From assembly GCF_014075995.1 (NCBI RefSeq), contig NZ_CP055153.1:6200001-6264000 (forward strand): a stretch of DNA of 64,000 nt, read 5' to 3'. Both the position numbers and the translations under genes were made by a program. Below the pieces are notes generated by a model. It searched no databases. It was not told the DNA's origin and worked only from the letters and a program-made list of their open reading frames with translations. The first letter of the stretch is position 1, and each line of letters opens with the position of its first letter. Below are positions 6,418 through 63,833 of the stretch, piece after piece. Source of the stretch: Adhaeribacter radiodurans (GTDB taxonomy: Bacteria > Bacteroidota > Bacteroidia > Cytophagales > Hymenobacteraceae).

Positions 6418-9400
6418 TCAGCGAGAAAGCAAGAGCTTAGTGGTGTAGCTCTTACCAAAAGTATGCAATTGTATCAGATATAGCCCTGTTGCTTGGTTTC
6501 CTGTGTGCCATTCGAGTTGATAGTGATAGGATTGGTTCGCTTGAACTTGGCCTTGAAACAAAGTCTTTAATTCTCTTCCCTGTATATCATACAATTTTAC
6601 TTTTACATATTGTGATTCAGGCAAATTGAAATGGATAGTTAACTTATCTTTAAAAGGATTTGGATACGCTTTCAATAGGGTTAGTTCTGTTTTGGGCACT
6701 GGTTCTTTAAATATGATTGTTTCTCTCGCCGCTATCACTGATGTAGTCTCAGGGGCTACTTTCACCAACCAGTAATCACTACTGCCTTGGCTAGCCTGCG
6801 TTCTGTCGCCACTTACCCCAGAATAAGAACGGCCACCGAGTAAAAAACCACCATCATTGCTTTGAAACACAGTGCGTAATTCGTCCTTGTCATTGCCTCC
6901 GAACCGTTGATCTCCTACTACCTGTCCATTTTCATCCACCTTCACTATCCAATAATCACTTCCACCGTGGCTAGCTTGCGTTTTGTCGCCGCTAATTCCC
7001 GAGTATGAGGAACCAGCCAGTACATACAAACCTTTATCCGTGTAAGTACTAGCTTGTAACTTTTCGTCTTTACTTCCCCCAAATCGCTTGTCCCACACTT
7101 TGTTGCCGTTATGATCTAGTTTAAGCAACCAATAGTCTTGGCCACCTTGGCTATATTGGCTTTTGTCCCCATTAGCACCTGATGCACTCGTACCCGCCAT
7201 GAAGTAGCTATCACCACTACGACCAACTGAGTAAGCCTTCTCTTCTCCACTTCCTCCAAAGGTTTTATCCCAAACCTTATTGCCGTCCTTATCAATACGT
7301 ACTATCCAGTAATCACTTCCACCTCTGCTAGTCTGGCTTTTATCCCCGCTGATTCCAGATAAAGAATTGCCTGCCAATAAAAAGCCCCCTTCCGGAGTCT
7401 GCGTAAAGCTGCCTAGTATTTCCTCTGATGAACCTCCGTAACGCTTATCCCAGATTTTGGCACCGGTGCTGCTGATTTTTATTAACCAGTAATCATTACC
7501 CCCTTGGCTACCTTGACTTTTTTCACCATCGGCCGGCGAGTTGCTGTAACCGCCTAACACGTATTCTCCAGTGCTAAGTTGCACGACTTTCTCCAGTTCA
7601 TCCGAACCACTACCTCCAAAGGCTTTATCCCATTGTAGATTACCGTTACCATCTACTTTTACTAACCAGTAATCCCGCAAGCCGCGGCTTTTTTCCGTCT
7701 TGTCTCCGTCTTTACCTGACAAAGAACTACCGGCTAATAAATATCCTCCATCTTTAGTTTGAATAACTCGGTTGAGGTAATCATCAGCACTACCGCCAAA
7801 CCGTTTATCCCAGAGCTTTTTACCATTTTTATCACTTTTTACAATCCAAAAGTCGTTTTTGCCTTGTCTGCTTTGAGTCTTATCACCACTTATGTCTGAA
7901 TTAGAGTAACCACCGAATAAGTAGCCTCCGTCTGAAGTTTTAATAGCTGTGGTAAAGTTGTCGCTACCTGAGCCACCAAAACGCATATCCCATTGGGTAG
8001 TAGTAGATTGTTCTTCTCTTATCTTCACCAACCAGTAGTCTGAGAAACCTCTAGAATCCTCGGATTTATCGCCGCTGATTCCAGAACTGGAAGTTCCCCC
8101 TAAAATATAGCTACCATCACTCGTTTGCTGAATAGAAGACATAGCATCGTTGGCAGGCCCGCCAAGGGTCTTGTCCCACTCTTTATGCCCGGTAGCATCT
8201 AACTTCACCGTCCAGTAATCACCAGGACACTCGAAGAAAAAACAATCTCCTTTATTATCTTCAGTTTTATCCCCGCCTTTATTAGAAACAGAGTAACCAC
8301 CTAAGATATAACCCTCATTAATGGTTTGTTGAAGAGATGTAAGCTCATCGTAATTATTTCCTCCTAAGGTTTTGTCCCATTGCTTTTTGCCAGCTGCATC
8401 CACTTTTATTATCCAGAAATCCATCAATCCTCTTGAAACTTCTGATTTGTCTCCACTAATGGAGGAAACGGAAGCTCCACCCAGGATATAGCCACCATCT
8501 CTGGTCTGCTGAAGAGAGTTAAGTAAATCACTACTGTTCCCCCCTAAAGTTTTATCCCACTGTTTTTCGCCAGTAGCATTCAGTTTTACCAACCAGAAGT
8601 CCAGGTAACCTTTTGATTCTTCTGTTTTACTTCCACTAATAGGTGAACTGGAATGTCCGCCCAAAATAAAACCATTATCCGTAGTTTGTTGAAGAGAAGA
8701 AAGTTCCTCCCAGTCACTTCCCCCAAAAGTTTTATCCCATTGCTTTTTACCGGTTGCATCCACTTTTATAATCCAGTAATCATTACTTCCTTTGGAAGCT
8801 TCTGTCTTATCTCCACTAATATCAGAGAGGGAATTTCCACCTAGGATATAGCCCCCATCACTGGTCTGCTGCAAAGAAGTAAGAAAATCGCTGCTAATTC
8901 CCCCAAAAGTTTTATCCCATTGCTTTTTACCGGTTGCATCCACTTTTATAATCCAGTAATCATTACTTCCTTTGGAAGCTTCTGTCTTATCTCCACTAAT
9001 ATCAGAGAGGGAATTTCCACCTAGGATATAGCCCCCATCACTGGTCTGCTGCAAAGAAGTAAGAAAATCGCTGCTAATTCCCCCAAAAGTTTTATCCCAT
9101 TGCTTTTTACCAGTTGCATCCACTTTTATAATCCAGTAATCTCCTACTCCCCTTGGAGCTTCAGTTTTATCTCCACTGATTTCAGAATAGGAATTTCCAC
9201 CTAGAATATAGCCACCATCAATGGTCCTCTGCAAAGAGGTAAGTTCATCCAGGTCACTGCCACCTAATGTTTTGTCCCATTCTTTAATTTGTCCAGAGGT
9301 TATAGAAGGATAATATATTAAAAACAAAAAAATAAATATTACTCGCAATCGCCAGTACTTAAGTAAGACAATAAAAGTATCCAAACTTAATTGTGATAAT

Positions 9401-9733: not shown

Positions 9734-9751
9734 GAACTTGTTTAGAGTTTT
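9734..9751 (+). repeat. Left terminal inverted repeat of the IS5 element
   Basis: 18 bases, reverse complement of 10636-10653 with one mismatch. Confidence 0.65.
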
Positions 9752-14480: not shown

Positions 14481-17400
14481 ATGAAAAAGCTTTTACCTTC
14501 TCTTCTCCACCATATTCAATGGTATCAACTCTATTTCTTTAAAATCAAGGGAAATCTGCCTGGCAGTAACTTGTTGCTGAAAATCACTTTTGTTTCACTT
14601 TTTGTCGTCAATTTTGAGTTTATAGCGTCCGCGCAGCTCATAAAGCAGTGGGACAAGACTTATGGGGGTATAAGAAGTGTAGTAACGGATGAAGAGGGAG
14701 TGGGAATTTGTGATACGGGTATTTCTTCCCTGCGCACGATAATACGAACCCCGGATGGGGGCTATTTATTAGGCGGATCTTCCGATTCCCAACAAGGAGG
14801 AGATAAAACCCAGGATAGCGAAGGGGATTGTAATCCAATCGAGAATGAGGGTGATCTGGACTATTGGGTAGTGAAGGTAGATAGTAAAGGTAATAAAACT
14901 TGGGATAAAACTTTTGCGGGCGGCACTAAGTTTGACCAACTTCAGGAAGTGGTAGCTACTCCCGATGGAGGCTATTTACTAGGAGGCTCCCTTGATCTGT
15001 ATGCTTTTTGGGTAGTAAAGATAGATGGAAAAGGTAATAAAATTTGGGACAAAACTTATGATGGGGGTTGGAAGTTGACTTCTTTAGTAGTTACGTCAGA
15101 TGGAAATTATTTAGTAGGAGGGTATTCTCAAACCGATAAAGAAGGAGACAAAAGTGAACCTAACAAAGGAGGAAATGATTATTGGTTGCTAAAAATTGAT
15201 CCGAATGGGAAGAAAATCTGGGATAAAACCTTAGGAGGAACTTCAGATGATTATCTTAAAAGTATCCTTGTTACCTCTGATGGAGGCTATTTAGTCGGAG
15301 GCTCTTCTACATCCGGTAATAGTGGTGATAAAACGGAAGGAACCAGGGATTCCCCTGAAAGTGATTATCCCTCTGACTTTTGGGTGGTAAAAATCGATGG
15401 CAATGGTAAAAAGCTTTGGGACAAGACTTTTGGGGGTGGGGAACATGATGATCTTTCAGATATAATTGCTACGGCTGATGGTGGGTATTTATTAGGTGGT
15501 ACATCTGCTTCTGGCAGGGAAGGAGATAAGAGTGATTTCCCGAAGGGCATTACTGATTATTGGGTTATAAAGATCAATGCAAACGGAAACAAAATTTGGG
15601 ATAAAACTTTGGGGGGGAAAGACCGGGAGATTCTTAATGATTTGGAGGCTACTCCGGATGGAGGCTACCTTCTAGGAGGTTCTTCCAGTTCGGGTAAAGG
15701 CTATGATAAGAGTGAAGATAATAGGCATGAGGTAGGATATGGGGATAATGATTATTGGTTTATCAAGATTGACCAGAATGGAAGTAAGCTTTGGGATAAA
15801 AGCTATGGAGGGAACGACTCGGATGAACTGGTGGCAATACGCTCTACTTCGGATGGCGGTTATGTGCTAGCAGGTACTTCCAGTTCCTATTCAGGAGGAG
15901 ATAAGAGTGATTTCCCGAAGGGCATTACTGATTATTGGGTGATTAAAATAAAAGAATCCAATCCTGCTACCTGGAACCTGCGCCACGGCGGTACGGGGAA
16001 CGACGGCATTACGGCTATGGTTAAAACAGCCGATGGCGGATACTTGCTGGGTGGAACTTCCGATTCAGGTACATCGGGCGATAAAAGCCAAGCCAGTAAA
16101 GGAAATCAGGATTACTGGATCGTAAAAACCGATAAACAAGGTAAGAAGTTGTGGGATAAAACTATTGGGGGGAGCGGTATGGATAATCTGACCGCTATAA
16201 TCGTTACTGCCGATGGAGGCTATTTGCTGGGGGGGTATTCCGACTCTGGTATTAGTGGGGATAAAAGTCAGCCTAGCCGGGGAGGAGTCGATTATTGGCT
16301 GGTGAAAGTGGATGGCACGGGTAAAAAGCTTTGGGATAAGGTTTACGGTGGTAATAATAGCGATAACTTAACAACACTGTTGTCTACTATGGACGGGGGT
16401 TATTTGCTGGGTGGCTCATCAGCTTCGGGTAGGAGTGGCGAGAAAAGTGAGGCAGGAAAAGGCAATACTGACTTTTGGATTTTAAAAATAGATGCTTTAG
16501 GTAAGAAAGTATGGGATAAAACCTATGGGAGTAATAAAAATGATAATCTCGCTGCTCTGATTAATACTTCGAATGGTGGTTATCTGTTGGGTGGCTCCTC
16601 TGCTTCGGGTATTTCCGGCGACAAGAGTCAAGGTTTGCGCGGAATGCAAGATTATTGGGTAATCCGCTTAAATGAGAATGGTTCTAAACTGTGGGACAAA
16701 ACCTATGGCGGAGTTAAGGACTTGTACTCACAAACATGGTGCGACCCTGGAATGGGTAACGATTGCCAAGTGGAATTTGGTAGTTCCATTCTTTCCGGGT
16801 TAGTACCTACCACAGATGGAGGTTTTTTGCTTGCCGGATCATCTAACGCCGATAAAGGCGGGGAAAAAAGTGAGGAAAATTTATTGTGGAATGATTATGA
16901 AGAAACGGCTCGATTAAGAGACTATTGGGTAGTAAAGATTGACGGGCAAGGAAATAAGAAGTGGGATAAAATTTATGGAGGAATCCATCAGTTTGAGTAC
17001 AATGATTATGGGACTTACTACTATACCGGTGATTCGGAGCTTAAATCAATAATTCCAACGTCAAATAACGAATTTATACTGGCAGGTACGTCTGATTCAG
17101 ACATAGGTAAGGACAAAAGTGAAAATAGCAGACGCGACATCGAAACCGAAAAAATTGATCAGCGATTGTATGACTATTGGGTAGTGAAGATTGACGGGAG
17201 TGGCCAGAAGAAGTGGGATAAAACAATTGGAGGATTAAACAATGACTTTTTAGCGGCTATTCTGCCTGTTTCAGAGAATGAGTATTTGCTAGGGGGCACG
17301 TCGGTATCGGGAATAGGGGGGGATAAGAGTGAGTCTAGTCGGGGAAATCAGGATTACTGGCTGGTAAAAGTAAAAGATTTAACGGCACCTGTTTCCGATG

Positions 17401-18971
17401 CTTGGAACCTGCGCTACGGCGGCACCGGCAACGAAGGCTTTACGGCTATTATAAAAACTTCTGATGGCGGGTACTTATCCGGCGGTTACACGAACTCGGG
17501 CGTGAGTGGTGATAAAACGCAAAGCAGCCAGGGCAAGAACGACTTCTGGATAGTCAAAAGTGATGCGGCCGGTAAAAAGCTCTGGGATAAACGCTACGGT
17601 GGCTCTCAGGAGGAATACCTCAACCGTATTATTCAAACTTCGGATGGTGGTTACTTGCTGGCCGGTTCTTCCCTTTCTGAAATCAGTGGCGATAAAACCC
17701 AGGCGAGTAGGGGCGGGCGGGATTACTGGATTGTCAAAATCAGTAATACCGGGGTAAAGCAATGGGACAAACGCTTTGGCGGCAGCGGCTACGACGAACT
17801 CAAAAAAGTAATTCAGCTCTCGACCGGCGAATATATTTTAGCCGGCTACAGCAACTCCCCGGCTGGCGGGAACAAAAGCCAGGCGAGCCGGGGAGGGTAC
17901 GATTACTGGATTATCAAAATTAGCAGCACCGGTACGCAGGTATGGGACAAGCGCTATGGGGGCAGTTCCGATGAAATATTAAGCGGCATTGTGTTAACGC
18001 CTGACAACGGCTTTTTACTGGGGGGCCATTCCTGGTCGGGAAAGAACGGCGACAAAAGCCAGGTAAGCCGAGGAGGGAGCGATTTCTGGGTGATTAGTCT
18101 GGATAAGAACGGCAACAAACTCTGGGATAAAACCTACGGGGGCAGCGGCGAAGACGAAGCCTATTCTTTAGGTCGGAGCGGCAAAGACTACTTTATCTCG
18201 GGCCAAAGTGATTCACCGGCGGGTGGGGATAAAACCCGCGGAAGCCAGGGAGGTAAAGATTTCTGGTTTATTAAGTTTAATAGCACCGGAGCGAAAATCT
18301 GGGACAAACGTTTTGGCGGAACCTTAGATGAAGAACTACGGGCCAGTGTACAGACCAGCGATGGAGGATATCTGTTAGCAGGTAAGTCTTTCTCCAACAA
18401 AAGCGGAAATAAATCGCAAAATAGTCAGGGAAGTAGTGATTACTGGATTGTAAAAACCGATAAAGATGGCATGTACCAGTGGGACAAACGCTACGGCGGC
18501 AGCGGGGCAGAAGAACTGCGGGCTGTGATCCAGACCAGCGATGGGGGTTTACTCTTAGCCGGGAAGTCCGACTCGGGGGTAAGTGGCGACAGAACCCAGC
18601 CCAGCCAAGGCGGTACCGACTTCTGGTTAGTAAAAGTAGCGCCCGAAACTTCTCCTATGGTAGCAGCCAGAGAAGCTACGGAAATTTCTGTTCCGGAAAA
18701 AGAAGTGCCGCTAAACTTACTGCGGGCTTATCCCAACCCGTTTAAAGAGCAGGTAACCATTAGCTTTACTTTACCCGATACGCAAAGGACTATCTTAAAA
18801 GTTTATGATAGCCAGGGCCGCGAAATTAGCACTTTGTTTAACGAAGAAGCGCAAGCCCAGCACACGTATGAAATAAGCTGGCCAGCTAATAAACAGGCTA
18901 CGGGCATGTACCTGTTACAATTACAAACGCCTACGCTTCGGCAGCAACAAAAATTACTTTTAACTAAGTAA
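14481..18971 (+). CDS. Giant secreted repeat protein, three predicted seven-bladed propellers, T9SS sorting domain
   Basis: 1496 residues. The signal peptide is long and ends near 53 (EFIASAQ). 21 units follow: 1-7 from about residue 56, 8-14 from about 497 (linker KIKESNPAT), 15-21 from about 974 (linker KVKDLTAPVSDA). Unlike its relatives it has no Ig-like domain between propellers 1 and 2. Units 12 and 13 carry long insertions, one with a Cys pair (WCDPGMGNDC); the gene at 20280 shares this feature at the same two blades. A type A sorting domain starts near 1410 (AYPNPF, ending LLLTK). A perfect 20-bp hairpin follows the stop. Role: exported, surface-exposed or released multi-propeller protein; ligand or enzymatic activity unknown. 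Confidence 0.88.
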   Translation: MKKLLPSLLHHIQWYQLYFFKIKGNLPGSNLLLKITFVSLFVVNFEFIASAQLIKQWDKTYGGIRSVVTDEEGVGICDTGISSLRTIIRTPDGGYLLGGSSDSQQGGDKTQDSEGDCNPIENEGDLDYWVVKVDSKGNKTWDKTFAGGTKFDQLQEVVATPDGGYLLGGSLDLYAFWVVKIDGKGNKIWDKTYDGGWKLTSLVVTSDGNYLVGGYSQTDKEGDKSEPNKGGNDYWLLKIDPNGKKIWDKTLGGTSDDYLKSILVTSDGGYLVGGSSTSGNSGDKTEGTRDSPESDYPSDFWVVKIDGNGKKLWDKTFGGGEHDDLSDIIATADGGYLLGGTSASGREGDKSDFPKGITDYWVIKINANGNKIWDKTLGGKDREILNDLEATPDGGYLLGGSSSSGKGYDKSEDNRHEVGYGDNDYWFIKIDQNGSKLWDKSYGGNDSDELVAIRSTSDGGYVLAGTSSSYSGGDKSDFPKGITDYWVIKIKESNPATWNLRHGGTGNDGITAMVKTADGGYLLGGTSDSGTSGDKSQASKGNQDYWIVKTDKQGKKLWDKTIGGSGMDNLTAIIVTADGGYLLGGYSDSGISGDKSQPSRGGVDYWLVKVDGTGKKLWDKVYGGNNSDNLTTLLSTMDGGYLLGGSSASGRSGEKSEAGKGNTDFWILKIDALGKKVWDKTYGSNKNDNLAALINTSNGGYLLGGSSASGISGDKSQGLRGMQDYWVIRLNENGSKLWDKTYGGVKDLYSQTWCDPGMGNDCQVEFGSSILSGLVPTTDGGFLLAGSSNADKGGEKSEENLLWNDYEETARLRDYWVVKIDGQGNKKWDKIYGGIHQFEYNDYGTYYYTGDSELKSIIPTSNNEFILAGTSDSDIGKDKSENSRRDIETEKIDQRLYDYWVVKIDGSGQKKWDKTIGGLNNDFLAAILPVSENEYLLGGTSVSGIGGDKSESSRGNQDYWLVKVKDLTAPVSDAWNLRYGGTGNEGFTAIIKTSDGGYLSGGYTNSGVSGDKTQSSQGKNDFWIVKSDAAGKKLWDKRYGGSQEEYLNRIIQTSDGGYLLAGSSLSEISGDKTQASRGGRDYWIVKISNTGVKQWDKRFGGSGYDELKKVIQLSTGEYILAGYSNSPAGGNKSQASRGGYDYWIIKISSTGTQVWDKRYGGSSDEILSGIVLTPDNGFLLGGHSWSGKNGDKSQVSRGGSDFWVISLDKNGNKLWDKTYGGSGEDEAYSLGRSGKDYFISGQSDSPAGGDKTRGSQGGKDFWFIKFNSTGAKIWDKRFGGTLDEELRASVQTSDGGYLLAGKSFSNKSGNKSQNSQGSSDYWIVKTDKDGMYQWDKRYGGSGAEELRAVIQTSDGGLLLAGKSDSGVSGDRTQPSQGGTDFWLVKVAPETSPMVAAREATEISVPEKEVPLNLLRAYPNPFKEQVTISFTLPDTQRTILKVYDSQGREISTLFNEEAQAQHTYEISWPANKQATGMYLLQLQTPTLRQQQKLLLTK

Positions 18972-19657: not shown

Positions 19658-19923
19658 ATGAAAATATTTCTACCTCCTCTAAGCCAAGTAAATCCACTTA
19701 AAAATAGGTGACTTTTACTTTTTTATGCATTACTCTAACTCACCCAGTTAAACTCTTTGCCCAGGAAAAAATCCGGGACAAAACTATTGGTGGTAATCAG
19801 TTTGATGCTTTATACTCCGTTCAGCAAACAAGTGATGGCGGTTACATGTTAGGCGGAACTTCCCGATCCGGAAAATCGGGGGATAAAATCGAAGCAAATC
19901 AGGATACTCCTACTACGTGTTAG
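19658..19923 (+). pseudogene. Relic of an array gene: signal peptide and first repeat unit only
   Basis: An ATG at 19658 opens like the array genes (MKIFLPP) but hits TGA at 19709. The homologous reading resumes in another frame (GTG at 19708), giving the end of a signal peptide (KLFAQ) and one unit (QQTSDGGYMLGGTSRSG, then KSGDK), then stops at 19921-19923. WDK has become RDK. It is a 5' remnant left by deletion of the rest of the gene. A 71-residue secreted peptide could be made from the GTG, but nothing suggests a function. Confidence 0.75.
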
Positions 19924-52040: not shown

Positions 52041-55000
52041 ATGAAAATAGTAATATTTGGTTTCTGCCTGATTAAAAAGTATTGGGTAGGAACACCCGGG
52101 TGGCGCATTTTAGGAGCTACCCTGTTGCTAAATTTACTTTTTATGGCAGAAGCTTCTGCCCAGAACAAACTTTGGGATAAAACTATTGGCGGCAACAGCG
52201 ACGATTATTTAAGTTCGGTGCAACCTACCCGCGATGGGGGCTTTATCCTGGGAGGATTTTCTTACTCCAGCAAAAAATTTGATAAATCAGAAAATAATAA
52301 AGGTGGATATGATTACTGGATAGTAAAATTAAAGTCTGATGGTAGCAAAGAATGGGATCGAACTATTGGCAGTTCTGATTGGGATTATTTTCGTTTTGTC
52401 CAGCAAACCAGCGATGGCGGATATATACTAGGGGGGCATACTTATGGGGGGAAAAGCCGTGATAAATCTGGGTTTTCTAAAGGTGGTCAGGATTACTGGA
52501 TTGTAAAATTGAATGCTAAAGGAGATAAGGTTTGGGATAAGACTTTAGGAGGTAACGACAACGAAGAACTCCAGTCTTTGCAGCAAACCAAAGATGGAGG
52601 GTATATCATCTTGGGAAATTCTAATTCCAGCTTAAGTGGCGATAAATCGCAAGCTTCTAAAGGTGGTCAGGATTACTGGATTGTAAAATTAAAGGCCGAT
52701 GGGAGTAAAGCCTGGGACAAAACTATAGGAAGTAATAGCTATGATCAGGCAACTTCCATCCAACAAACTAAAAACGGCGGTTATATTGTAACTGGCGTTT
52801 CTTCTGCCAATATTAGTGGTGATAAATCGCAGGATAGTAAAGGGGGCGATGATTTTTGGGTAGTAAGTTTAAACGCGGATGGTAGTAAAGCTTGGGATCG
52901 AACCATTGGAGGTAATAATGGAGATGCCCCGACAGCGGTGCGGCAAACCAGTGATGGTGGTTATATTGTGGGTGGCTATTCTAGTTCCGGCATAAGCGAT
53001 GATAAAACCCAGGCAAGTAAAGGGAACAATGATTATTGGGTAGTGAAGTTGAATGCGGATGGCAGCAAAGAATGGGATAAAACCATTGGCAGCAACGGTT
53101 GGGATAATTTAACTGGTTTGCAGCAAAACAGCGATGGCAGTTATATCCTGGGTGGTAACTCTTCTTCGGGGATTGGTGGAAACAAAACGCAGATAAGTAA
53201 AGGCGGTAACGATTATTGGGTCGTGAAATTAAATACCGATGGTTCCATTGCCTGGGATAAAACCATTGGCGGCAACAGCGACGATAATCTTTCTTCTATC
53301 CTGCAGCTCTCGGATGGTAATTTCCTGCTAGGTGGTTTTTCGTATACAAGTAACAACGGCGACAAATCCGAAAAAAATAAAGGAGGCTATGATTATTGGG
53401 TGGTCAAACTAGATAACAGCGGCACCAACCTGAACCAGATTATTACTTTCGCGCCTATTCTTTATAAAAACGTAGACGATCCACCGCTTACTTTAGAAGC
53501 TACTACTAGCTCGGGCTTGCCCATTACGTATACCGTTGAATCTGGTCCGGCAACCATTAGCGATGGCAATAAATTAACTTTAACGGGATTGGGAACAGTT
53601 ACGGTAAAAGCAGCTCAACTAGGTACTACCATTTTCTTACCAGCTTCCGTTACTCGTTCCTTTTTGGTAGAGCCGCCTTCTATGGTGAAAAAACAGTGGG
53701 ATCAAACCATTGGCGGTAACTCCTCTGATCAGTTAGTTTCCGTGCAACAAACCAGCGATAAAGGGTATATTTTGGGGGGTAGCTCATCCTCTGGCAAAAA
53801 TGGCGATAAATCAGCAACGGGTAAAGGTGGTCAGGATTACTGGATCGTAAAATTAAGAGCTGACGGCAGTAAAGAATGGGATAAAACCATTGGCGGTAAT
53901 AGAGAAGACTATTTAAGCTCTGTTCAGCAAACCAAAGACGGTGGCTATATTCTGGGAGGTTATTCTTTTTCTGGTATGAGCGGCGATAAATCGCAGCCTA
54001 CCAAAGGCAGTTGGGATTACTGGGTAGTAAAACTCCGCGCAAATGGCACGAAAGAATGGGATCAAACCCTGGGCGGCCGAAATGAAGATTATTTAACCTC
54101 CGTGCAGCCAACCCAGGACGGTGGTTATATCCTGGGTGGCTATTCTACTTCCGGCATCGGGGCGAACAAAACCGAAGCGAACCGGGGCATTTCTGATTAT
54201 TGGGTAGTAAAATTAAAAGCCGATGGTAGCAAATCCTGGGATAAAACTATTGGCGGTCGGTACGAAGATGTTCTAACCTCTATCCAGCAAACCAAAGATA
54301 GCGGGTATATTTTGGGAGGTTATTCTTTATCGGGTATTAGCGGCGAAAAGTCTCAGGCCCGGATTGGCAGCACCGATTATTGGATTGTAAAATTAGAAGC
54401 GAACGGGGAGAAAACCTGGGATAAAACCATTGGTGGCACAGACGAAGATTATTTGTCATCCTTACAGCAAACCAGCGACGAAGGGTATATCTTGGGTGGG
54501 TATTCCTGGTCGGGCATTAGCGGCAATAAGAGCCAGGCTTCTATCGGCCAACACGATTACTGGATAGTAAAGTTAAAAACCGATGGTACCAAAGATTGGG
54601 ATAAAACTCTGGGCGGTAACGAAAGCGACGTATTAACGTCGGTGCGGCAGACCAGCGATGGCGGCTATATTGTAGGGGGAAATTCTTTTTCGGCTATTTC
54701 CGGCGACAAAACTCAGGTTCCGCGCGGTGCACCCGACTACGACTATTGGATAATTAAATTAAAAGCCGATGGCAGCAAAGTTTGGGATAAAACCTTGGGC
54801 GGTAACGATAACGATGTACTGGCTTCGGTACTCCCAACCGGCAACGGAGAATACATTTTAGGCGGCACCTCCAACTCCGCCGTTTTTGGCGATAAAAGTG
54901 AATCGAGTAAAGGTAACACCGACTTTTGGATTGTAAAGTTGAAAGAAGAAGTTACGCTGAATACCGTCTGGGATATGCGTTTCGGAGGTAATGGCCAAGA

Positions 55001-56540
55001 TAACTTAACCTCGGTGATCAAAACACGGGATGGTGGTTACTTATCGGGCGGTTATACCAATTCCGGCAACAACGGCGATAAGAGCCAAAATAGCCAGGGA
55101 ATGAACGACTACTGGATTGTAAAAAGTAATAAAAACGGCGAAAAAGAATGGGATAAACGCTACGGCGGCAGCGGGGAAGATTATCTCAACCGGGTTATTC
55201 AAACCTTAGATGGCGGGTATTTGCTGGCAGGTAATTCTTTGTCGGGCAAAAGCGGCGATAAGTCTCAAGCCAGTCAAGGCGATCGGGATTACTGGGTAAT
55301 AAAAGTTGATGGACAAGGCAATCAGGAATGGGATAAAACTTTCGGAGGCAGTGGCTCCGACGACCTGATTAAAGCAATCCAACTAGCTTCCGGAGAATAC
55401 GTGTTAGGCGGATACAGCAGTTCACCGCAGAGCGGCGATAAATCGCAGGACAACCAGGGCGGTAAAGATTACTGGTTAGTAAAAATGAGCAACACCGGCG
55501 AAAAGCTCTGGGATAAACGTTATGGCGGCAGCAAAGACGACAAGCTAGGCAGTTTCACCGACACCAGAGACGGCGGCTTTTTCCTGGGTGGCAGTTCTTA
55601 TTCTAACATCAGCGGCGACAAAACGCAAGAAAACCAGGGTAGCAGTGATTTTTGGGCCGTAAAAACCGACAAAGACGGTAATTTACTTTGGGAGAAAACT
55701 TTCGGCGGCAGCGGTCAGGATGAAGTTAACTCCGTGCGGCGTAGCCACGGCGATAACCTGTACCTGGCCGGCACCAGCGACTCTGATAAGAGTGGCGATA
55801 AAAGCCAGTCCAGTCTGGGTGGCAAAGATTACTGGCTGGTAAAAGTAAATCAACAAGGCGAAAAAGTTTGGGATCGTACTTTTGGGGGCACCAAAGATGA
55901 TGAACTGAAAGCCAGTTCCTACACCGACGAAGGCAACTACATTTTAGCGGGCACTTCTTACTCTGATGCCGGAGGCGATAAGAGCCAAGCCAGTCGGGGC
56001 AGTACGGATTACTGGATTGTGCAAGTAGATGAGAAAGGAAAAAGCTTAATTGATCAGCGGTTTGGTGGCAGCGGAGCCGAAGAACTACGCACCGTATTCC
56101 CGACCAGTGACGGAGGATGGCTCTTAGGTGGCCGCTCCGATTCCGGCGTAAGTGGCGATCGTTCTCAGTCCAGTCAGGGCGGCACCGATTACTGGCTGGT
56201 GAAAGTAGCGCCACTCAGCAGCGCTTTAGCTACTTCCCGGCAGGCTGTAGCAGAAGCAGAGCCAATATCCAACGCAACGTTTAACCTGCTCACCGCATCG
56301 CCAAACCCAGCCAAAGAACGGCTTACCGTTAGCTTTACTTTGCTGCAAAGCCAAACCGCTACTCTAAAAGTGTACGACATACAAGGCAAGCAGGTCGCTA
56401 CTTTGTTCCAGGGCCAGGTGCAAGCCAAACAACCGTACCGAGTAGAATGGCAAGCCGGTAATAAACCGGCGGGCATGTACTTACTACAACTTCAAACCCC
56501 CACTTTGCGCCAGCAACAAAAATTGTTAGTAACGAAGTAA
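52041..56540 (+). CDS. Giant secreted repeat protein, three predicted propellers with Ig-like linker, T9SS sorting domain
   Basis: 1499 residues. The signal peptide ends near 41 (EASAQ). Units 1-7 from about residue 45; Ig-like domain about 464-543; units 8-14 from about 553; units 15-21 from about 976. It has the most regular blades of the array, with few loop insertions and no cysteine pairs. The C-terminal propeller has the LLWEKTFGG and DQRFGG subtype. Sorting domain from about 1410, with ASPNPA in place of AYPNPF, ending LLVTK. A terminator follows. Confidence 0.88.
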   Translation: MKIVIFGFCLIKKYWVGTPGWRILGATLLLNLLFMAEASAQNKLWDKTIGGNSDDYLSSVQPTRDGGFILGGFSYSSKKFDKSENNKGGYDYWIVKLKSDGSKEWDRTIGSSDWDYFRFVQQTSDGGYILGGHTYGGKSRDKSGFSKGGQDYWIVKLNAKGDKVWDKTLGGNDNEELQSLQQTKDGGYIILGNSNSSLSGDKSQASKGGQDYWIVKLKADGSKAWDKTIGSNSYDQATSIQQTKNGGYIVTGVSSANISGDKSQDSKGGDDFWVVSLNADGSKAWDRTIGGNNGDAPTAVRQTSDGGYIVGGYSSSGISDDKTQASKGNNDYWVVKLNADGSKEWDKTIGSNGWDNLTGLQQNSDGSYILGGNSSSGIGGNKTQISKGGNDYWVVKLNTDGSIAWDKTIGGNSDDNLSSILQLSDGNFLLGGFSYTSNNGDKSEKNKGGYDYWVVKLDNSGTNLNQIITFAPILYKNVDDPPLTLEATTSSGLPITYTVESGPATISDGNKLTLTGLGTVTVKAAQLGTTIFLPASVTRSFLVEPPSMVKKQWDQTIGGNSSDQLVSVQQTSDKGYILGGSSSSGKNGDKSATGKGGQDYWIVKLRADGSKEWDKTIGGNREDYLSSVQQTKDGGYILGGYSFSGMSGDKSQPTKGSWDYWVVKLRANGTKEWDQTLGGRNEDYLTSVQPTQDGGYILGGYSTSGIGANKTEANRGISDYWVVKLKADGSKSWDKTIGGRYEDVLTSIQQTKDSGYILGGYSLSGISGEKSQARIGSTDYWIVKLEANGEKTWDKTIGGTDEDYLSSLQQTSDEGYILGGYSWSGISGNKSQASIGQHDYWIVKLKTDGTKDWDKTLGGNESDVLTSVRQTSDGGYIVGGNSFSAISGDKTQVPRGAPDYDYWIIKLKADGSKVWDKTLGGNDNDVLASVLPTGNGEYILGGTSNSAVFGDKSESSKGNTDFWIVKLKEEVTLNTVWDMRFGGNGQDNLTSVIKTRDGGYLSGGYTNSGNNGDKSQNSQGMNDYWIVKSNKNGEKEWDKRYGGSGEDYLNRVIQTLDGGYLLAGNSLSGKSGDKSQASQGDRDYWVIKVDGQGNQEWDKTFGGSGSDDLIKAIQLASGEYVLGGYSSSPQSGDKSQDNQGGKDYWLVKMSNTGEKLWDKRYGGSKDDKLGSFTDTRDGGFFLGGSSYSNISGDKTQENQGSSDFWAVKTDKDGNLLWEKTFGGSGQDEVNSVRRSHGDNLYLAGTSDSDKSGDKSQSSLGGKDYWLVKVNQQGEKVWDRTFGGTKDDELKASSYTDEGNYILAGTSYSDAGGDKSQASRGSTDYWIVQVDEKGKSLIDQRFGGSGAEELRTVFPTSDGGWLLGGRSDSGVSGDRSQSSQGGTDYWLVKVAPLSSALATSRQAVAEAEPISNATFNLLTASPNPAKERLTVSFTLLQSQTATLKVYDIQGKQVATLFQGQVQAKQPYRVEWQAGNKPAGMYLLQLQTPTLRQQQKLLVTK

Positions 56541-56561
56541 AAATTTAGTAAATAGTTACAT

Positions 56562-56881: not shown

Positions 56882-59800
56882 ATGCAAACACCTTTATCTC
56901 TTTTCTGCCAAGTGCTACTTAATCTAAAAATGCTGCTCCGGTGGTGGGTTATAAATTTAGTTGTGTTTCTATATTTAAGTCTTTCGGCGAATGTTTTTGC
57001 CCAGAATAAAATTTGGGATAAAACCTTTGGCGGAGATGGTTGGGATGAATTATCCGTAATACAGCAAACAAGCGATGGGGGCTATATTTTAGGAGGTACT
57101 TCTACTTCCGGCAAAAGTGGCGATAAATCGGAACCTAGTATTGGGGGAGAGCATTTTGGAACCCCTACTACTGATTACTGGGTAGTGAAGCTAAAAGCCG
57201 ATGGCAGTAAAGAGTGGGATAAAACCTACGGCGGCGATATTGATGACAAATTAACTTCTGTCCGACAGACCAACGATGGGGGCTATATTCTTGGAGGAAC
57301 ATCCCAAAAATGTGATAGAGATTACTGTCCTGGTTATTACTGGATAGTGAAGTTAAAACCGGATGGCAGCAAAGAATGGGATAAAACCTTTGGCAGTAAC
57401 TGGTTTGATGAGTTTACCTCTTTACAACAGACCAGCGATGGGGGCTATATTTTGGGAGGCAGTTCTGAGTCTGGCATCAGTGGCGATAAAACCCAGGCCA
57501 ATAAAGGCGGCTATGATTACTGGATAATAAAGGTGAAGGCCGATGGCAGTAAAGAATGGGATAAAGCTTATGGGGGAAGATATGATGATAAGTTAACCCA
57601 TTTAGAGCAAACGCGTGATAGCGGCTATATTCTAACAGGAAATTCTTATTCTCCCAAAAGTGGCGATAAATCTGAAGATTCTAGTGGTCAAGATTACTGG
57701 GTAGTGAAGTTAAAAGCCAATGGCAGTAAAGAATGGGATAAATCCTTTAGTGGAAGTGGTAGCGATGACTTGCGCTCTGTGGTGCAACAGACCCTGGATG
57801 GCGGCTATATTCTAGGAGGTTCCAGAGGCGGTAATACTAATTACTGGCTAGCGAAGTTAAAAGTCGATGGCAATAAAGAATGGGTTAAATCCTTGGGAGG
57901 TAACGGACTTGATGGCTTCACTTCACTGCAGCAGACGAGTGATGGCGGGTATCTGCTGGGTGGTACTTCTGAATCCGGAGTTAGTGGAAATAAGACGGAA
58001 GGATGCCGAGGAACTGACAGATATGGCTATTGCCAGAAGGATTACTGGCTCGTAAAGATAAAAGCCAATGGCAGCAAAGAGTGGGATAGAACCATTGGGG
58101 GTAAAGAGCAAGATAGACTTTTTTCTCTTCAACAAACTCTAGATGGCGGCTATATTTTGGGCGGTTCCTCCGAATCCGGCAAGAGTGGGGATAAAACGCA
58201 GGCTAATAAAGGCGGTACCGATTATTGGGTAGTAAAGCTGGATAGATTTATTACTAAAAATCAAACTATTACTTTCCCGCCCATTACGAATAAAACCTTA
58301 GGTCAGGCACCTTTTACCCTATCAGCTACGGCTAGTTCGGGTTTGCCGGTGAGCTTTCAAGTTATGTCTGGGCCGGCTACCATTAATAAAAATATAATAA
58401 CACTCACTGCCGCTGGGACCGTGAAGGTAAAAGCCTTTGTATTGGGCACGGATACTTACCGACCAGCTGAAGCTATTGTTTCCTTTTTCGTAGATCCTCC
58501 GGGAGCTGTCAGAAAAGAATGGGATAAAACCTTAGGGGGCAGTAATAACGAATTTGGATTATTTTTTCAACTCTCTCTTGATGGCGGTTATATTCTGGGG
58601 GGGTATTCTAATTCGGGTAAAAGCGGTGATAAATCTGAAGAAGTATCAGGCACCTGGATTGTAAAGATAAAATCGGATGGCAGCAAGGACTGGGATAAAG
58701 TTATTTATAGCGGCGGTAGTGATAATTTATACTCCCTGCAACAAACCAATGATGGAGGCTATATTCTGGGGGGTAGTGGCAGTGATTACAGGATAATGAA
58801 GCTAAAAGCCGACGGTAGCATAGAATGGGACAAAACTATCGGGGGTAGTGGCTTGGATAACTTAAGTTTGGTTAAACAGAGTAGCGATGGGGGCTATATT
58901 TTGGTTGGGTATTCTTACTCAGGCAAAAGCAGAGATAAAACTGAAGCTTCTTATGGTGCTTGGGTAGTGAAGATAACAGCGGATGGTACGAAAGAATGGG
59001 ATAAAGTTATTAGTCGTATTAGGATAACCTCACTCCAACCCACTCGCGACGGGGGGTATATCCTGGGAGGAGGTTCTGTTGATTATTGGGTAGCGAAGCT
59101 AAAGGCCGATGGCAGCATGGAATGGGATAAAACCATTGGGGGAGCAGGTGAGGATGCTTTACGCGTAGTGCATCAGATCCGCGATGGCAGCTATATTCTT
59201 GGGGGGTATTCTTATTCGGGAATATCTGGCGATAAATCCGAAGATAGTAAAGGTGACTATGATTATTGGATTGTCAAGTTAAAGGTGGATGGCAGCAAGG
59301 AATGGGATAAAACTATTGGCGGAAACCGTAGTGATAATTTAAACTCCCTGCAACAAACCAATGATGGAGGTTATATTCTGGGTGGGAATTCAAATTCTGG
59401 CATCAGCGGCGATAAATCACAAGTAAGTAGAGGTAGGGATGATTATTGGATTGTAAAACTGAATACCAGTGGAGCTAAAATTTGGGATAAAACCTTTGGC
59501 GGAGATAAAAATGATTACTTAGGTACAGTACAACAAACTTTGGATGGGGGATATATTCTTGGGGGCGCGTCTGAATCGGGTAAAAATGGCGATAAATCCG
59601 AAGCTACTAATGGGTATATGGATTACTGGGTAATAAAAATAAAAGAAGAGGAACCTCTAACGTCTCAATGGAATATGCGCTACGGGGGTTCGGGCCAGGA
59701 TAACTTTACTACAGTAATTAAGACAAAGGATGGTGGTTACTTATCCGGTGGTTACACCAACTCAAATAAGAGTGGGGATAAAACACAAGCAAGCCAAGGG

Positions 59801-60856
59801 AAGCAAGATTACTGGATTGTCAAATCAGATAAGAACGGCAAAAAAGAATGGGACCAACGTTATGGGGGTAGTGGCGAGGATTACCTGAATTCTATTATTT
59901 CAACCAGTGATGGCGGGTATTTACTGGCGGGCAGTTCTTTGTCGGATAAAAGCGGAGATAAAAGCCAGACCAGCCAAGGCGATCGGGATTACTGGATTGT
60001 TAAGATAGATGCCCAAGGCACGAAGCAGTGGGACAAACGCTATGGCGGCTCGGATTACGATGAGCTCAAGCAAGTTATTCAACTACCTTCTGGCCGCTAT
60101 CTTCTGGCTGGTACGAGCAGTTCTCCGGCCAGTGGCGACAAACGTCCGGGTAGTCAGGGCGGACAAGACTACTGGGTACTCAAAATCTCGGCTACCGGGG
60201 AGAAGATCTGGGACAAACGTTACGGGGGTTCCGGTGAAGACGTACTGGAAGGTTTGGCTCCTACCCTGGACGGCGGCTTGTTGCTGGGCGGCACTTCTAC
60301 TTCAGGCGTAAGCGGGGATAAAACCCAGGCCAGCCGCGGCAACTCTGATTTTTGGCTGGTGCGCATTGATGGAGATGGAAACTTGCTTTGGGACAAACGC
60401 TATGGGGGCAGTGGGGAAGACCAGTTACTAGCCCTGGGCAGCACCGGTACTAGTTCGGGTAACTTCTTTGTGGCGGGCACAAGTACGTCGGGTAAAGGCG
60501 GCGATAAAACGCAGGCCGGTCAAGGAGGCAAAGATTATTGGTTCTTGAAGCTCAACAGCAAAGGCGGTAAGCTCTGGGATAAAGTGTATGGCGGCAGCCA
60601 GGACGAAGAACTCCGTTCGGTTATTCTCACTCAGGAGGGCGGTTACTTGCTAGGCGGAAGTTCAACTTCTAATAAGAGCGGCGACAAAACGGAAGCAAGT
60701 CAAGGTAAGAAAGATTACTGGCTGGTGAAAACCAATGACAAAGGCCAACTGCAATGGGATAAGCAATTAGGCGGAAGTGGCGAAGAAGAACTACGCACGG
60801 TTCTGGAACTAGCTGAAGGCAGCTATGTGGCGGGTGGTCGTTCCACCTCGGGGTAA
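56882..60856 (+). CDS. Giant secreted repeat protein, three predicted propellers with Ig-like linker; frameshift removes its sorting domain
   Basis: 1324 residues as read. The signal peptide ends near 41 (ANVFAQ). Units 1-7 from about residue 45; Ig-like domain about 459-540; units 8-14 from about 547; units 15-21 from about 930. Unit 2 has a CX4C pair (CDRDYC) and unit 6 a wider pair (CRGTDRYGYC). Several middle blades (units 9-11) are short and lack the GDKs loop. The frame ends in STSG-stop inside the last unit, because a run of four Gs at 60850-60853 stands where the close paralog at 43617 has five. Restoring one G gives 1452 residues with the full last unit and sorting domain. As it stands the product should fail T9SS export. 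Confidence 0.85.
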   Translation: MQTPLSLFCQVLLNLKMLLRWWVINLVVFLYLSLSANVFAQNKIWDKTFGGDGWDELSVIQQTSDGGYILGGTSTSGKSGDKSEPSIGGEHFGTPTTDYWVVKLKADGSKEWDKTYGGDIDDKLTSVRQTNDGGYILGGTSQKCDRDYCPGYYWIVKLKPDGSKEWDKTFGSNWFDEFTSLQQTSDGGYILGGSSESGISGDKTQANKGGYDYWIIKVKADGSKEWDKAYGGRYDDKLTHLEQTRDSGYILTGNSYSPKSGDKSEDSSGQDYWVVKLKANGSKEWDKSFSGSGSDDLRSVVQQTLDGGYILGGSRGGNTNYWLAKLKVDGNKEWVKSLGGNGLDGFTSLQQTSDGGYLLGGTSESGVSGNKTEGCRGTDRYGYCQKDYWLVKIKANGSKEWDRTIGGKEQDRLFSLQQTLDGGYILGGSSESGKSGDKTQANKGGTDYWVVKLDRFITKNQTITFPPITNKTLGQAPFTLSATASSGLPVSFQVMSGPATINKNIITLTAAGTVKVKAFVLGTDTYRPAEAIVSFFVDPPGAVRKEWDKTLGGSNNEFGLFFQLSLDGGYILGGYSNSGKSGDKSEEVSGTWIVKIKSDGSKDWDKVIYSGGSDNLYSLQQTNDGGYILGGSGSDYRIMKLKADGSIEWDKTIGGSGLDNLSLVKQSSDGGYILVGYSYSGKSRDKTEASYGAWVVKITADGTKEWDKVISRIRITSLQPTRDGGYILGGGSVDYWVAKLKADGSMEWDKTIGGAGEDALRVVHQIRDGSYILGGYSYSGISGDKSEDSKGDYDYWIVKLKVDGSKEWDKTIGGNRSDNLNSLQQTNDGGYILGGNSNSGISGDKSQVSRGRDDYWIVKLNTSGAKIWDKTFGGDKNDYLGTVQQTLDGGYILGGASESGKNGDKSEATNGYMDYWVIKIKEEEPLTSQWNMRYGGSGQDNFTTVIKTKDGGYLSGGYTNSNKSGDKTQASQGKQDYWIVKSDKNGKKEWDQRYGGSGEDYLNSIISTSDGGYLLAGSSLSDKSGDKSQTSQGDRDYWIVKIDAQGTKQWDKRYGGSDYDELKQVIQLPSGRYLLAGTSSSPASGDKRPGSQGGQDYWVLKISATGEKIWDKRYGGSGEDVLEGLAPTLDGGLLLGGTSTSGVSGDKTQASRGNSDFWLVRIDGDGNLLWDKRYGGSGEDQLLALGSTGTSSGNFFVAGTSTSGKGGDKTQAGQGGKDYWFLKLNSKGGKLWDKVYGGSQDEELRSVILTQEGGYLLGGSSTSNKSGDKTEASQGKKDYWLVKTNDKGQLQWDKQLGGSGEEELRTVLELAEGSYVAGGRSTSG

Positions 60857-61239
60857 GTGGAGATAGAACCCAGCCGAGTCAAGGCAGTACCGACTACTGG
60901 CTCGTGAAATTCTCTGCTCCAACCAGTTCGATCGTAGCCGAAAGAGAAGCTACTCCAGCTGAGGAAGCTGTTTCTGTTACTCGGACTTTGACTGCTTATC
61001 CGAACCCGTTCCAAGGCAGAGTAACCGTGCAATTTACCTTACCACAAAGCCAATCGGCAATCATCAAAGTCTATGACAATCAAGGAAAAGAAATTACAAC
61101 TTTGTTTAACAGCCAGGCGCAAGCTAATCTAACCTACCATGTAGAATGGCAAGCAAGTACAAAACCCGCTGGTTTGTACTTACTGCAACTGCAAACACCT
61201 AGCCTCCGCCAACAGGAGAAATTGATTTTAGTTAAATAA
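60857..61239 (+). pseudogene. Detached end of the preceding gene: rest of last repeat unit and T9SS sorting domain
   Basis: In the shifted frame the sequence continues as VSGDRTQPSQGSTDYWLVKF, then a linker and a complete sorting domain (AYPNPF, VKVYDNQGKEITTLF, ending LILVK). It is nearly identical in DNA to 47780-48176. It has no ribosome entry of its own and would only be expressed if the frame were restored. Confidence 0.85.
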
Positions 61240-61469
61240 TTTCACTTTGCAACCAACCAGCAGTTCTGCTTTCTGGCTTGGCTGCAGAGTACCCCTTTTA
61301 ATAATTTAATAGTTAGCAAAACCTTTGAACAAGAAATCTTGGCAGTAATTTTTTAGATTTTTGCGGATTTCTTAACTGGAATTTGAATCCTGTTATAGTA
61401 CTACTAATTAAATATCGATAAATTTCTTTAACTTATTTGTCTTTCCACACACCTTTAAATCCCACTATT

Positions 61470-63833
61470 ATGAAACAAGTTTTACTTTGTTCTGGGCAAG
61501 CCCCAAGTGGTTATATCCGGAACCTTTACCAGCAGTTGTGCCCGTTAAGGCAAAAAGGTTTGCTGTTATTAATGGAGAATAAGCCATTAAAAATAAAGAT
61601 CTTATCCCCATTATTTGTAAACCTTATTCTACTTTTTACTTTATTATCTTCCTCTAATCCTGCTTTCTCCCAATATAAAAAGGTAGTACCAGCCAAAGCT
61701 CCCGTAACCGTTTCTATCCCCGCTGATAAGGACAATGCTATATCTTCGACTAATTCTACAAAAAATGAAGGCTCCCTAGTCAATCTTCATGTAGGCAGAA
61801 CCGGAACCCAGGGCGGGAATACAGTACAAAGAGCCTTATTTCACTTTGACCTTAGCCGCATTCCGGCCGGAAGTAAAATTAATGCCGCTACTCTTACCTT
61901 AACTGTAACGAGAGCCAAGGGAATGGTTCCGGTAGCTTTGCATAAATTAACCGCCAATTGGGGAGAATTAGAGTCCACCTGGAGCCATGCTTCTTTACCT
62001 GGTACCCCCTGGACTACCCCCGGCGGCGATTTTAATCCAACGGCTTCTGCCAGTACGGGTGATGTTGCAACAGGTCCTTTGGTTATTTCTGATTTAACCG
62101 CTGATGTTCAAGCCTGGGTAGATAACCCAGCGGGTAACTTTGGGTGGCTTTTAAAAGTAGTAAACGAGGAACCTACCTTTACGGCTAAGCTCATTGCTTC
62201 ACGAGAAAATACTGTTGAATCCCTCCGGCCCATTCTGAGTATCACCTATACCCTTAACGAAGGCTGGGACCAGCGCTATGGCGGTTTGGGCAACGAAGGC
62301 TTTACCACTATTATTAAAACAGCGGATGGCGGCTATTTATCCGGTGGTTATACCAACTCTAACGTGAGCGGCGATAAAACCCAACCTAGTCAGGGCAAAA
62401 ATGATTATTGGATTGTAAAAAGTGATGACTTGGGCAAGAAACTCTGGGACAAACGCTTTGGGGGTACGGATGATGATTACCTGAATCGCATTATTCAAAC
62501 GAAAGACGGCGGTTTCTTATTAGCGGGGTCTTCCTTATCGGGTAAAAATGGCGATAAAACAGAGACAAGCCGGGGAAACCGGGATTACTGGGTAGTAAAA
62601 ATAAATAAGGAGGGCACTAAGCAATGGGATAAACGGTACGGAGGCTCGGGCTACGACGAGCTCAAAAAAGTTATTCAACTTTCTACCGGCGAATACATTT
62701 TAGCAGGTTACAGCAACTCCCCGGCTGGCGGCGATAAAAGCCAAAATAGCCAGGGCAAAAACGACTTCTGGATTGTTAAAATAAACAATACAGGTAGCAA
62801 AATTTGGGATAAACGCTACGGTGGTAACTTAGATGAGGCTTTAGGAGGCATTGTGCAGACCTCAGATGAGGGCTATTTGTTAGGTGGCAGTTCCTTATCA
62901 GGCAAGAGCGGCGATAAAAGCAGAGTAAACCGTGGAGGCAACGATTTCTGGTTAATCCGGTTGGATAAAGATGGTACTAAAATCTGGGATAAAACCTATG
63001 GTGGCAGCGGTCACGACGAAGTTTATTCTGTCGGAAAAGTAGGCAACAATTTCTTTATCTCTGGCCAGAGTAATTCTCCCGCCGGCGGCGATAAAACGTT
63101 GGGCAGTCAGGGCGGTAAAGATTTTTGGTTGATGAAAATTTCGAGTACAGGTGCTAAAGTGTGGGACCAGCGCTATGGCGGCAGTTTAGACGAAGAATTA
63201 CGGGCTAGTATCCAGACGCGGGATGGCGGGTATTTACTGGCTGGTAAATCGTTCTCAAATAAAAGTGGCGACAAAACCCAAGACAGCCAAGGCAGTAGCG
63301 ATTACTGGATCGTGAAAACCGATGCCAACGGCAAATACCAGTGGGATAAACGCTACGGGGGCATCGATGCCGAAGAACTTCGGGCAGTTATTCAAGGAAA
63401 TGACGGTAGCTTCTTGCTGGCCGGTAAATCAACCTCGGGGGTGAGTGGCAATCGAACCCAACCCAGCCAGGGCGGTTATGATTTTTGGCTGGTGAAGGTA
63501 GCCCCGGAAACTACACCCATTGTAACAGCCAGAGAAATCATGTTGGTAGCAGAACCGGCAGCAGAAGCAACACTCAGTCTGCTCCAGGCTCACCCCAATC
63601 CGTCTTCGGGTACGTTTATAATTAGTTTTGCTTTGCCCCAAACGCAACCTGCTCAAGTAAAAGTGTACAATAGCCAAGGCGGGGAAGTAGCCAATTTGTT
63701 TACCGGTGAGGCGCAAGCCAACCAAAAATATCAGGTTGAATGGCAAGCCGGAAAGCAAGCATCTGGAATGTATCTATTGCAACTACAAACCCCAACGCAA
63801 AAGCAACAACAGAAATTACTATTAACGAAGTAA
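61470..63833 (+). CDS. Secreted DNRLRE-domain protein with one predicted propeller and T9SS sorting domain
   Basis: 787 residues from ATG 61470. The frame is open further up to a TTG at 61437, and the ATG at 61572 would give the most typical signal peptide (FVNLILLFTLLSSS, then PAFSQ). A DNRLRE-type beta domain follows (about 70-260: RALFHFDLSRIPAGSKI, then ATLTLTV and LTADVQAWV), a carbohydrate-associated fold often found in secreted proteins. Seven repeat units start near 266 and match the C-terminal propeller of the array, subtype with VGNNFFISGQSNS in blade 5. The sorting domain starts near 705 (AHPNPS instead of AYPNPF), ending LLLTK. It shows the terminal propeller being combined with an unrelated N-terminal domain. 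Confidence 0.85.
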   Translation: MKQVLLCSGQAPSGYIRNLYQQLCPLRQKGLLLLMENKPLKIKILSPLFVNLILLFTLLSSSNPAFSQYKKVVPAKAPVTVSIPADKDNAISSTNSTKNEGSLVNLHVGRTGTQGGNTVQRALFHFDLSRIPAGSKINAATLTLTVTRAKGMVPVALHKLTANWGELESTWSHASLPGTPWTTPGGDFNPTASASTGDVATGPLVISDLTADVQAWVDNPAGNFGWLLKVVNEEPTFTAKLIASRENTVESLRPILSITYTLNEGWDQRYGGLGNEGFTTIIKTADGGYLSGGYTNSNVSGDKTQPSQGKNDYWIVKSDDLGKKLWDKRFGGTDDDYLNRIIQTKDGGFLLAGSSLSGKNGDKTETSRGNRDYWVVKINKEGTKQWDKRYGGSGYDELKKVIQLSTGEYILAGYSNSPAGGDKSQNSQGKNDFWIVKINNTGSKIWDKRYGGNLDEALGGIVQTSDEGYLLGGSSLSGKSGDKSRVNRGGNDFWLIRLDKDGTKIWDKTYGGSGHDEVYSVGKVGNNFFISGQSNSPAGGDKTLGSQGGKDFWLMKISSTGAKVWDQRYGGSLDEELRASIQTRDGGYLLAGKSFSNKSGDKTQDSQGSSDYWIVKTDANGKYQWDKRYGGIDAEELRAVIQGNDGSFLLAGKSTSGVSGNRTQPSQGGYDFWLVKVAPETTPIVTAREIMLVAEPAAEATLSLLQAHPNPSSGTFIISFALPQTQPAQVKVYNSQGGEVANLFTGEAQANQKYQVEWQAGKQASGMYLLQLQTPTQKQQQKLLLTK

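Follow-up and report, generated by a model that had tools for sequence, protein, structure and literature searches.

A large family of type IX secretion cargo proteins in Adhaeribacter radiodurans, predicted to be strings of seven-bladed beta-propellers with a distinct base propeller

The main question raised by this part of the Adhaeribacter radiodurans genome is why eleven neighbouring loci code for repeat proteins whose unit numbers are all multiples of seven. The window, i.e. the whole stretch of DNA that was analysed, comprises 64,000 nucleotides (contig NZ_CP055153.1, positions 6,200,001 to 6,264,000), and loci are named here by their first position in it. The original prediction had read 189 WDK-type units in 27 blocks of seven from these letters, with 7, 14 or 21 units per locus. 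A unit profile made from 110 window units bears this out: with split matches merged by eye, it finds 189 units in the eleven loci, which in window order is 14, 21, 21, 21, 7, 21, 21, 14, 21, 21 and 7, the last block of 56882 being cut by a frame break. The raw output was 194 matches over the eleven loci; units split by loop insertions were merged in 14481 (24 raw matches) and 20280 (22 raw matches), and one match of -3.5 bits was discarded in 34828. A unit has about 60 residues and the consensus WDKTYGGSGDDELTSLIQTSDGGYLLGGSSNSGKSGDKSQASRG..DYWLVKIDANGNK, and the Asp residues at unit positions 11, 37 and 45 are conserved to 74 to 92%. If counts could vary freely, the probability that all eleven are multiples of seven would be about (1/7)^11, a figure to be read with the reservation that paralogs are not independent.

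Table 1. Repeat genes and remnants in the window. "Base" is the propeller adjoining the T9SS tail (type IX secretion sorting domain).
Feature	Position	Strand	Parts and matches
14-unit gene	6418..9420	(-)	distal propeller 7996-9279; base 6745-7992; T9SS tail 6421-6744 (Por_Secre_tail 7.5e-11)
21-unit gene	14481..18971	(+)	propellers 14649-15962, 15972-17387; base 17403-18647; T9SS tail 18648-18968
Remnant	19708..19920	(+)	short open frame; most of one unit (60.9 bits)
21-unit gene	20280..25052	(+)	propellers 20412-21791, 22050-23468; Ig-like linker 21792-22049; base 23481-24728; T9SS tail 24729-25049
Remnant	28552..28734	(+)	short open frame; second half of a last unit (28 bits) and residues resembling those after the last block in paralogs
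21-unit gene	29239..33840	(+)	propellers 29374-30720, 30988-32256; Ig-like linker 30721-30987; base 32269-33510; T9SS tail from 33511
7-unit gene	34828..38358	(+)	N-terminal half with weak sub-threshold Reprolysin_3 match; GEVED domain; base 36775-38025; T9SS tail from 38026
21-unit gene	38692..43278	(+)	propellers 38824-40077, 40342-41691; Ig-like linker 40078-40341; base 41707-42954; T9SS tail from 42955
21-unit gene	43617..48176	(+)	propellers 43749-45062, 45315-46592; Ig-like linker 45063-45314; base 46605-47861; T9SS tail from 47862
14-unit gene	48898..51906	(+)	propeller 49030-50289; base 50302-51555; T9SS tail from 51556; whole product modelled, moderate confidence
21-unit gene	52041..56540	(+)	propellers 52173-53435 (modelled), 53697-54956; Ig-like linker 53436-53696; base 54969-56216; T9SS tail from 56217
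21-unit gene, broken in last unit	56882..61239	(+)	propellers 57014-58252, 58520-59656; Ig-like linker 58253-58519; base 59669 to stop 60856
T9SS tail of broken 56882 locus	60904-61239	(+)	different frame from 56882 product; frame left unmended
7-unit gene	61437..63833	(+)	DNRLRE domain (7.1e-24); base 62265-63509; T9SS tail from 63510

Mapping of the block limits in the window proteins places linkers, Ig-like segments and foreign N-terminal domains at block borders, as had been claimed from the letters; "Ig-like" is here a reading of the sequence, with no family match behind the label. The borders were also judged independently of any counting, by the junction spacing in 85 ORFs that come from several genomes and have 14, 21 or 28 units. 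The standard unit-to-unit connection length is present at 1256 of 1392 junctions within blocks, versus 3 of 147 after unit 7, 14 or 21. With a looser text pattern, 9 of 85 borders behind unit 7 and 18 of 61 behind unit 14 still passed in the same ORFs, and an earlier test on profile end positions gave no sharp border. In eight of the eleven products, a hydrophobic stretch that by eye resembles a signal peptide ends in Ala-Gln a few residues before block 1. The two short open frames between intact genes appear to be leftovers of further copies. The left part of the cluster also contains a gene for an HTH protein (5207-5596), an IS4/5-type transposase (9742-10602) and an integrase-core transposase (11198-12178), and at 705-4277 the window codes for another T9SS cargo protein, with DMFA2_C, Big_7 and DUF4082 domains and a sorting domain.

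What fold do these blocks adopt? The first block of the 52041 product, which is the one of 27 window blocks that was modelled alone, from an alignment with the other 25 unbroken window blocks, is predicted to have 28 strands, i.e. seven blades of four strands, with a pLDDT of 93.5 and a pTM of 0.90. A short strand at WDKT opens the modelled block and a strand at DYWVVKL closes it, as expected if the N-terminus supplies the last blade with its outermost strand. One unit would then consist of strand d of one blade and strands a, b and c of the next, and the block would open with strand d and close with strand c (velcro closure), so that the count must be seven. In a Foldseek search with the modelled block, CylK is the top match, with a TM of 0.86 over 430 columns, which is the whole block, 25% identity and an E-value near 1e-24, and the next propeller follows at 1e-7. 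CylK is also reached by phmmer, at 4.2e-32 with the 61437 product and at 9e-24 with the modelled block. The model of the whole 48898 product, made with eight sequences, has a pLDDT of 75.6 and a pTM of 0.52; part of it overlays CylK with 2.6 A over 424 columns, and its next structural matches, at low TM values of 0.22 to 0.27, are large proteins with two propellers in tandem. Single seven-bladed rings, one closed propeller per block as originally predicted, are well supported by the 28-strand model, the end-to-end CylK overlay and the counts in homologs given below, with ring closure being read from the model and the CylK match.

The solved structure of the CylK C-terminal domain (PDB 7fh6, 7ron) is described as a propeller of seven blades, with internal loops that are long and calcium at every junction between blades (PMC8916777). 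The window blocks resemble it in fold, in the number of blades and, by a significant match over the full block, in sequence, and they may likewise bind calcium. In CylK, one propeller stands behind a calcium-binding N-terminal domain in an alkylating enzyme, whereas the window proteins carry up to three propellers in a row, apparently four in one protein of G006, on T9SS cargo. With CylK as the nearest solved relative, the propellers could in principle be enzymes or enzyme parts, as in CylK, where the active site is located between the top face of the propeller and another domain, and one paralog has a subtilase domain and another a weak metallopeptidase match. However, most paralogs in the window's genome are made up of propellers and a sorting tail, often with an Ig-like linker, and lack a second large domain, and we regard an enzymatic role of this kind as very improbable.

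Beyond the window, unit counts in homologs are likewise multiples of seven, with few exceptions. By the profile alone, 109 of 115 complete ORFs from ten genomes have 7n units. This count follows a fixed completeness rule, excludes 23 ORFs without head or tail (pieces of broken genes and remnants) as well as all ORFs that touch a locus edge, and takes in, for G003, G005, G006 and G028, the stretches around part of the matches listed; among the 109 fitting ORFs, 4107163 and 4108818 are two halves of one frameshifted gene. The gene 3065721-3070274 of the window's genome (G000), which spans two overlapping loci, was counted by hand as 21 units. Four of the six misfits contain a diverged stretch of 45 to 65 residues where a unit is expected, which we read as the absent unit, one stems from a broken gene, of which it is the second half, and the last one, L028 (G000 C2 3536755-3540885), is a real exception, as this intact ORF has a five-unit first block followed by 7 and 7. 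The rule also holds for 78 of 80 complete ORFs in 79 loci of named genomes (Hymenobacter, Pontibacter, Flavobacterium, Dyadobacter, Cyclobacterium and others), 73 of the 80 being single blocks of seven; this set is biased, since it comprises the 79 loci that best match a query of seven units, and it partially overlaps with the G genomes (e.g. L140). Five further ORFs were excluded from it as incomplete, including L178 (7 units and a spurious eighth match) and two pieces of L152. The two named misfits are L173, with 13 units and one diverged stretch of 65 residues, and L130, with six near-identical units in a draft assembly, in which the repeat has possibly collapsed; together with the five-unit block of L028, the six units of L130 are the genuine departures from seven. 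At the other end of the range, L085 (G006 C1 4230564-4236599) codes for a 28-unit protein with apparently four propellers and two Ig-like linkers. Distant SBBP-like loci of the order (L055, L056, L058 to L063) give 8 to 23 bits per unit and raw counts of 3 to 6; as the profile misses units there, they were counted neither for nor against the rule.

Within the window's genome, by-hand reading gives 47 intact genes, 46 of them with 7, 14 or 21 units, and 7 of 54 loci that are broken or remnant. Two of the broken loci depart from seven, 1749929/1752419 with 1+7+7 units and 1754060 to 1758579 with 8+6+7, which fits what loss of constraint would give, the number being small. Blade turnover is ongoing: in the first propeller of the 6418 product, units 2 and 3 have the same DNA sequence at 180 of 180 bases, and the block still has seven units. 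It might be argued that the repeats form an open solenoid and that the multiples of seven stem from duplication of a seven-unit gene segment, without any structural need. Whole-block duplication has clearly occurred, and block counts are thus partly inherited, but such a history would not lead one to expect the high-confidence propeller model with its full-length match to a solved closed propeller, the predominance of single blocks in the named genomes, or the fact that the two departures just mentioned fall in broken genes. We consider an open solenoid extremely improbable, and the propeller model and the CylK overlay in effect rule it out.

The original prediction knew of no named family for the unit, and this has to be revised, as named relatives exist in the CylK propeller and in the LipL53 family SBBP repeat lipoprotein (NCBIfam NF047494), with which similarity extends over multiple units and reaches an E-value of 1.4e-38. 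The scores against NF047494 are 68 to 133 bits in five of six scanned proteins, versus a cut-off of 400 bits, and the sixth, 34828, gave no match to this model. LipL53 is, going by its name, a family of Leptospira lipoproteins, whereas the window proteins carry T9SS tails instead. The SBBP repeat is characterized by a glycine pair and a D before a hydrophobic strand, with seven blades in its name, and the window unit shares with it the glycine pair and the D before the hydrophobic strand. Of the likeness to SBBP and delta-60 repeats that had been suspected, the SBBP part holds by way of LipL53, below the cut-off of that family, while the delta-60 part does not (E 0.034 to 0.11). The delta-60 repeat (TIGR02608) has a unit of similar length, and membership was rejected, as three of six proteins reached 12.4 to 14 bits, versus a cut-off of 76.5 bits, and the others gave no match. 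Pfam reported no repeat family in the eleven window proteins, giving weak sub-threshold matches to unrelated models alone, and SBBP repeat PF06739 was not among the reported models at E-values up to 0.1. Judged by these comparisons, the family is related in sequence to CylK and LipL53, scores below the LipL53 cut-off, and went unreported by the Pfam repeat models in these scans.

As to localization, ten ORFs and the separate tail of the eleventh locus (56882) have the T9SS C-terminal sorting domain PF18962 above cut-off, and PorU, the only component of the machinery that was sought, is present in the window's genome with 1383.6 bits versus a cut-off of 420. The proteins thus have the features of type A T9SS cargo, with the machinery judged by PorU, and the sorting domain points to export by the type IX secretion system. 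In known systems, type A sorting domains lead to attachment via anionic lipopolysaccharide (PMC9143113). Going by the sorting domain, it is most likely that the proteins are held at the cell surface.

A central observation is that the propeller adjoining the secretion tail, here termed base, is a distinct lineage in the window's genome. In a midpoint-rooted tree of 187 blocks, a clade of 44 members (support 0.92; 0.997 for the inner 43) unites all 38 last blocks of multi-propeller proteins of this genome with 6 of its 10 single blocks, and no block from the 64 distal ones or the 75 named homologs falls in it. Of the four single blocks placed elsewhere, one is half of a broken gene and three are propellers that do not adjoin the sorting tail. 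In a tree of 344 blocks, also midpoint-rooted, the best clade has 136 members (support 0.985) and takes in 103 of the 106 tail-adjacent blocks of the G genomes and not one of their 152 other blocks; three tail-adjacent G blocks lie outside, two being halves of broken genes and one, G003 949913, a real exception. This clade also holds 33 named blocks, largely of Hymenobacter and Adhaeribacter, 19 being not tail-adjacent. The base lineage is therefore not confined to multi-propeller proteins but includes single-propeller proteins of other genomes, and the larger tree indicates that the wider lineage to which the base belongs is made up mostly of single-propeller proteins, while distal propellers belong to other lineages. 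In five single-block genes of the window's genome, a subtilase with GEVED, a GEVED or a DNRLRE domain lies N-terminal to a lone base propeller, and the base may therefore be a general mounting module.

The base also differs from the distal propellers in its variability. Among 26 three-propeller genes, which include the broken 56882, mean identity is 61% for the base, 50% for block 1 and 48% for block 2, and the length SD is 5, 15 and 26 residues, respectively. Pairwise identities of the three blocks are weakly correlated (0.36 to 0.46), which indicates that their histories are in part separate. A comparison of 325 pairs gives a pN of 0.25 in the base versus 0.34 and 0.35 in blocks 1 and 2, and synonymous differences are close to saturation in each of the three blocks (mean pS about 0.73 to 0.77). 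Recent homogenisation as sole cause of the likeness of the bases is excluded for most pairs, with a base pS mean of 0.77, as elsewhere. Four pairs were scanned along their length (6243554/6256879, 6285144/6290078, 3051260/3056011 and 6275451/6285144); in each of them, DNA identity rises where the base propeller begins, one stretch of 3051260/3056011 having an identity of 1.00 over 50 codons, and local gene conversion is therefore likely in these four pairs. Insertions cluster after unit position 44, which is the b-c loop. Three or more extra residues are found in this loop in 136 of 448 distal units, in 3 of 266 last-block units, and in 1 of 42 and 2 of 28 units of single blocks, and insertions in the d-a loop occur in 21 of 448 distal units versus 0 of 266 last-block units. 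By propeller convention, the b-c loop is on the top, the ligand-binding face.

What alternatives exist for a binding function of such variable propellers? The main rival is that the strings are structural spacers or coat material, which would keep other domains at a distance from the cell or cover its surface, and that the distal blocks have diversified by drift because constraint on them is relaxed. Such relaxation would produce the same pN pattern, pS being near saturation, and a spacer role also agrees with the other domains that stand on a lone base in five genes and with the breakage of 7 of 54 loci. However, the insertions are found mainly in one loop of the distal blades instead of being spread around the whole blade, and the unit number is an exact multiple of seven in 46 of 47 intact genes, and we therefore think a spacer role unlikely, albeit worth serious consideration. 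The broken loci and the two window remnants fit dispensable genes or a reserve of variants equally well.

The family is large in the window's genome (6.9 Mb, two contigs): searches of this genome, with 146 matches listed and 27 of 177 candidates unscored, gave at least 54 loci, which make up 3.1% of the bases, many of them in clusters near 1.27-1.30, 1.75, 3.04-3.07, 4.08-4.13 and 6.21-6.29 Mb. Breaks by in-frame stop or frameshift like that of 56882 are present at several other loci of this genome and also in G003, G005 and G006. At L013 (G000 C2 3041286-3050968), two adjoining 21-unit genes have one in-frame stop each (TAG, TGA), in both cases in unit 6 of the first propeller, at slightly different positions. 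At L018 (G000 C2 4113019-4113456), a remnant of 146 residues combines an N-terminal leader, part of a unit and part of a sorting domain, a shape as left by internal deletion. The expansion is patchy: among the matches listed, which are pieces and not genes, there are at least 46 in the congeners G003, G005 and G006 versus 3 to 8 in G001, G002, G004 and G007 (G007 is 78% complete), and outside the taxonomic family many are found in G026 (58) and G028 (46).

Taken as a whole, we hold it to be on balance probable that these are T9SS-exported surface proteins built from closed seven-blade blocks, with a constant base propeller and variable binding heads, forming a repertoire of at least 54 loci. 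The base would be a conserved module that carries either one or two distal propellers or an unrelated domain, and the top-face loops of the distal propellers would bind a ligand. The constancy of the base, together with diverged distal propellers that carry b-c insertions on their top face, is what suggests such a repertoire, and the paralogs may be surface adhesins or recognition proteins whose diversity could have been favoured by selection. Blades and base propellers would at times be exchanged or copied, with the count of seven being kept. More tentatively, and with considerable reserve, one may think of an expanding T9SS surface-receptor repertoire with a conserved base and interchangeable, diversified heads, in which exchange of blades and propellers preserves seven, and which would be a counterpart of constant- and variable-region proteins.

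Seven-bladed propellers, SBBP-type repeats and blade amplification are already known, and to our knowledge there is no precedent in Bacteroidota for a diversified surface repertoire with constant base and variable heads. Among the literature matches listed, titles and abstract openings hold no name for this family and no base/distal arrangement, nor do they hold T9SS-cargo strings or a family of this size. Recently amplified beta-propellers are alike in blade duplication within propellers and in a preferred blade number per lineage (PMC9218822); a constant base with variable distal propellers, as present in the window's genome, is not mentioned in the portion of that survey covered here. The fold is known, yet about 3% of one genome is devoted to a family for which the Pfam scans made here reported no repeat model. 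The near-strict seven in some 300 natural propellers, together with a fresh blade duplication, provides a data set on the upkeep of blade number. If the reading with constant base and variable heads is true, the family would represent a diversified surface repertoire of this organism, and it would be a source of modular propeller strings for protein design.
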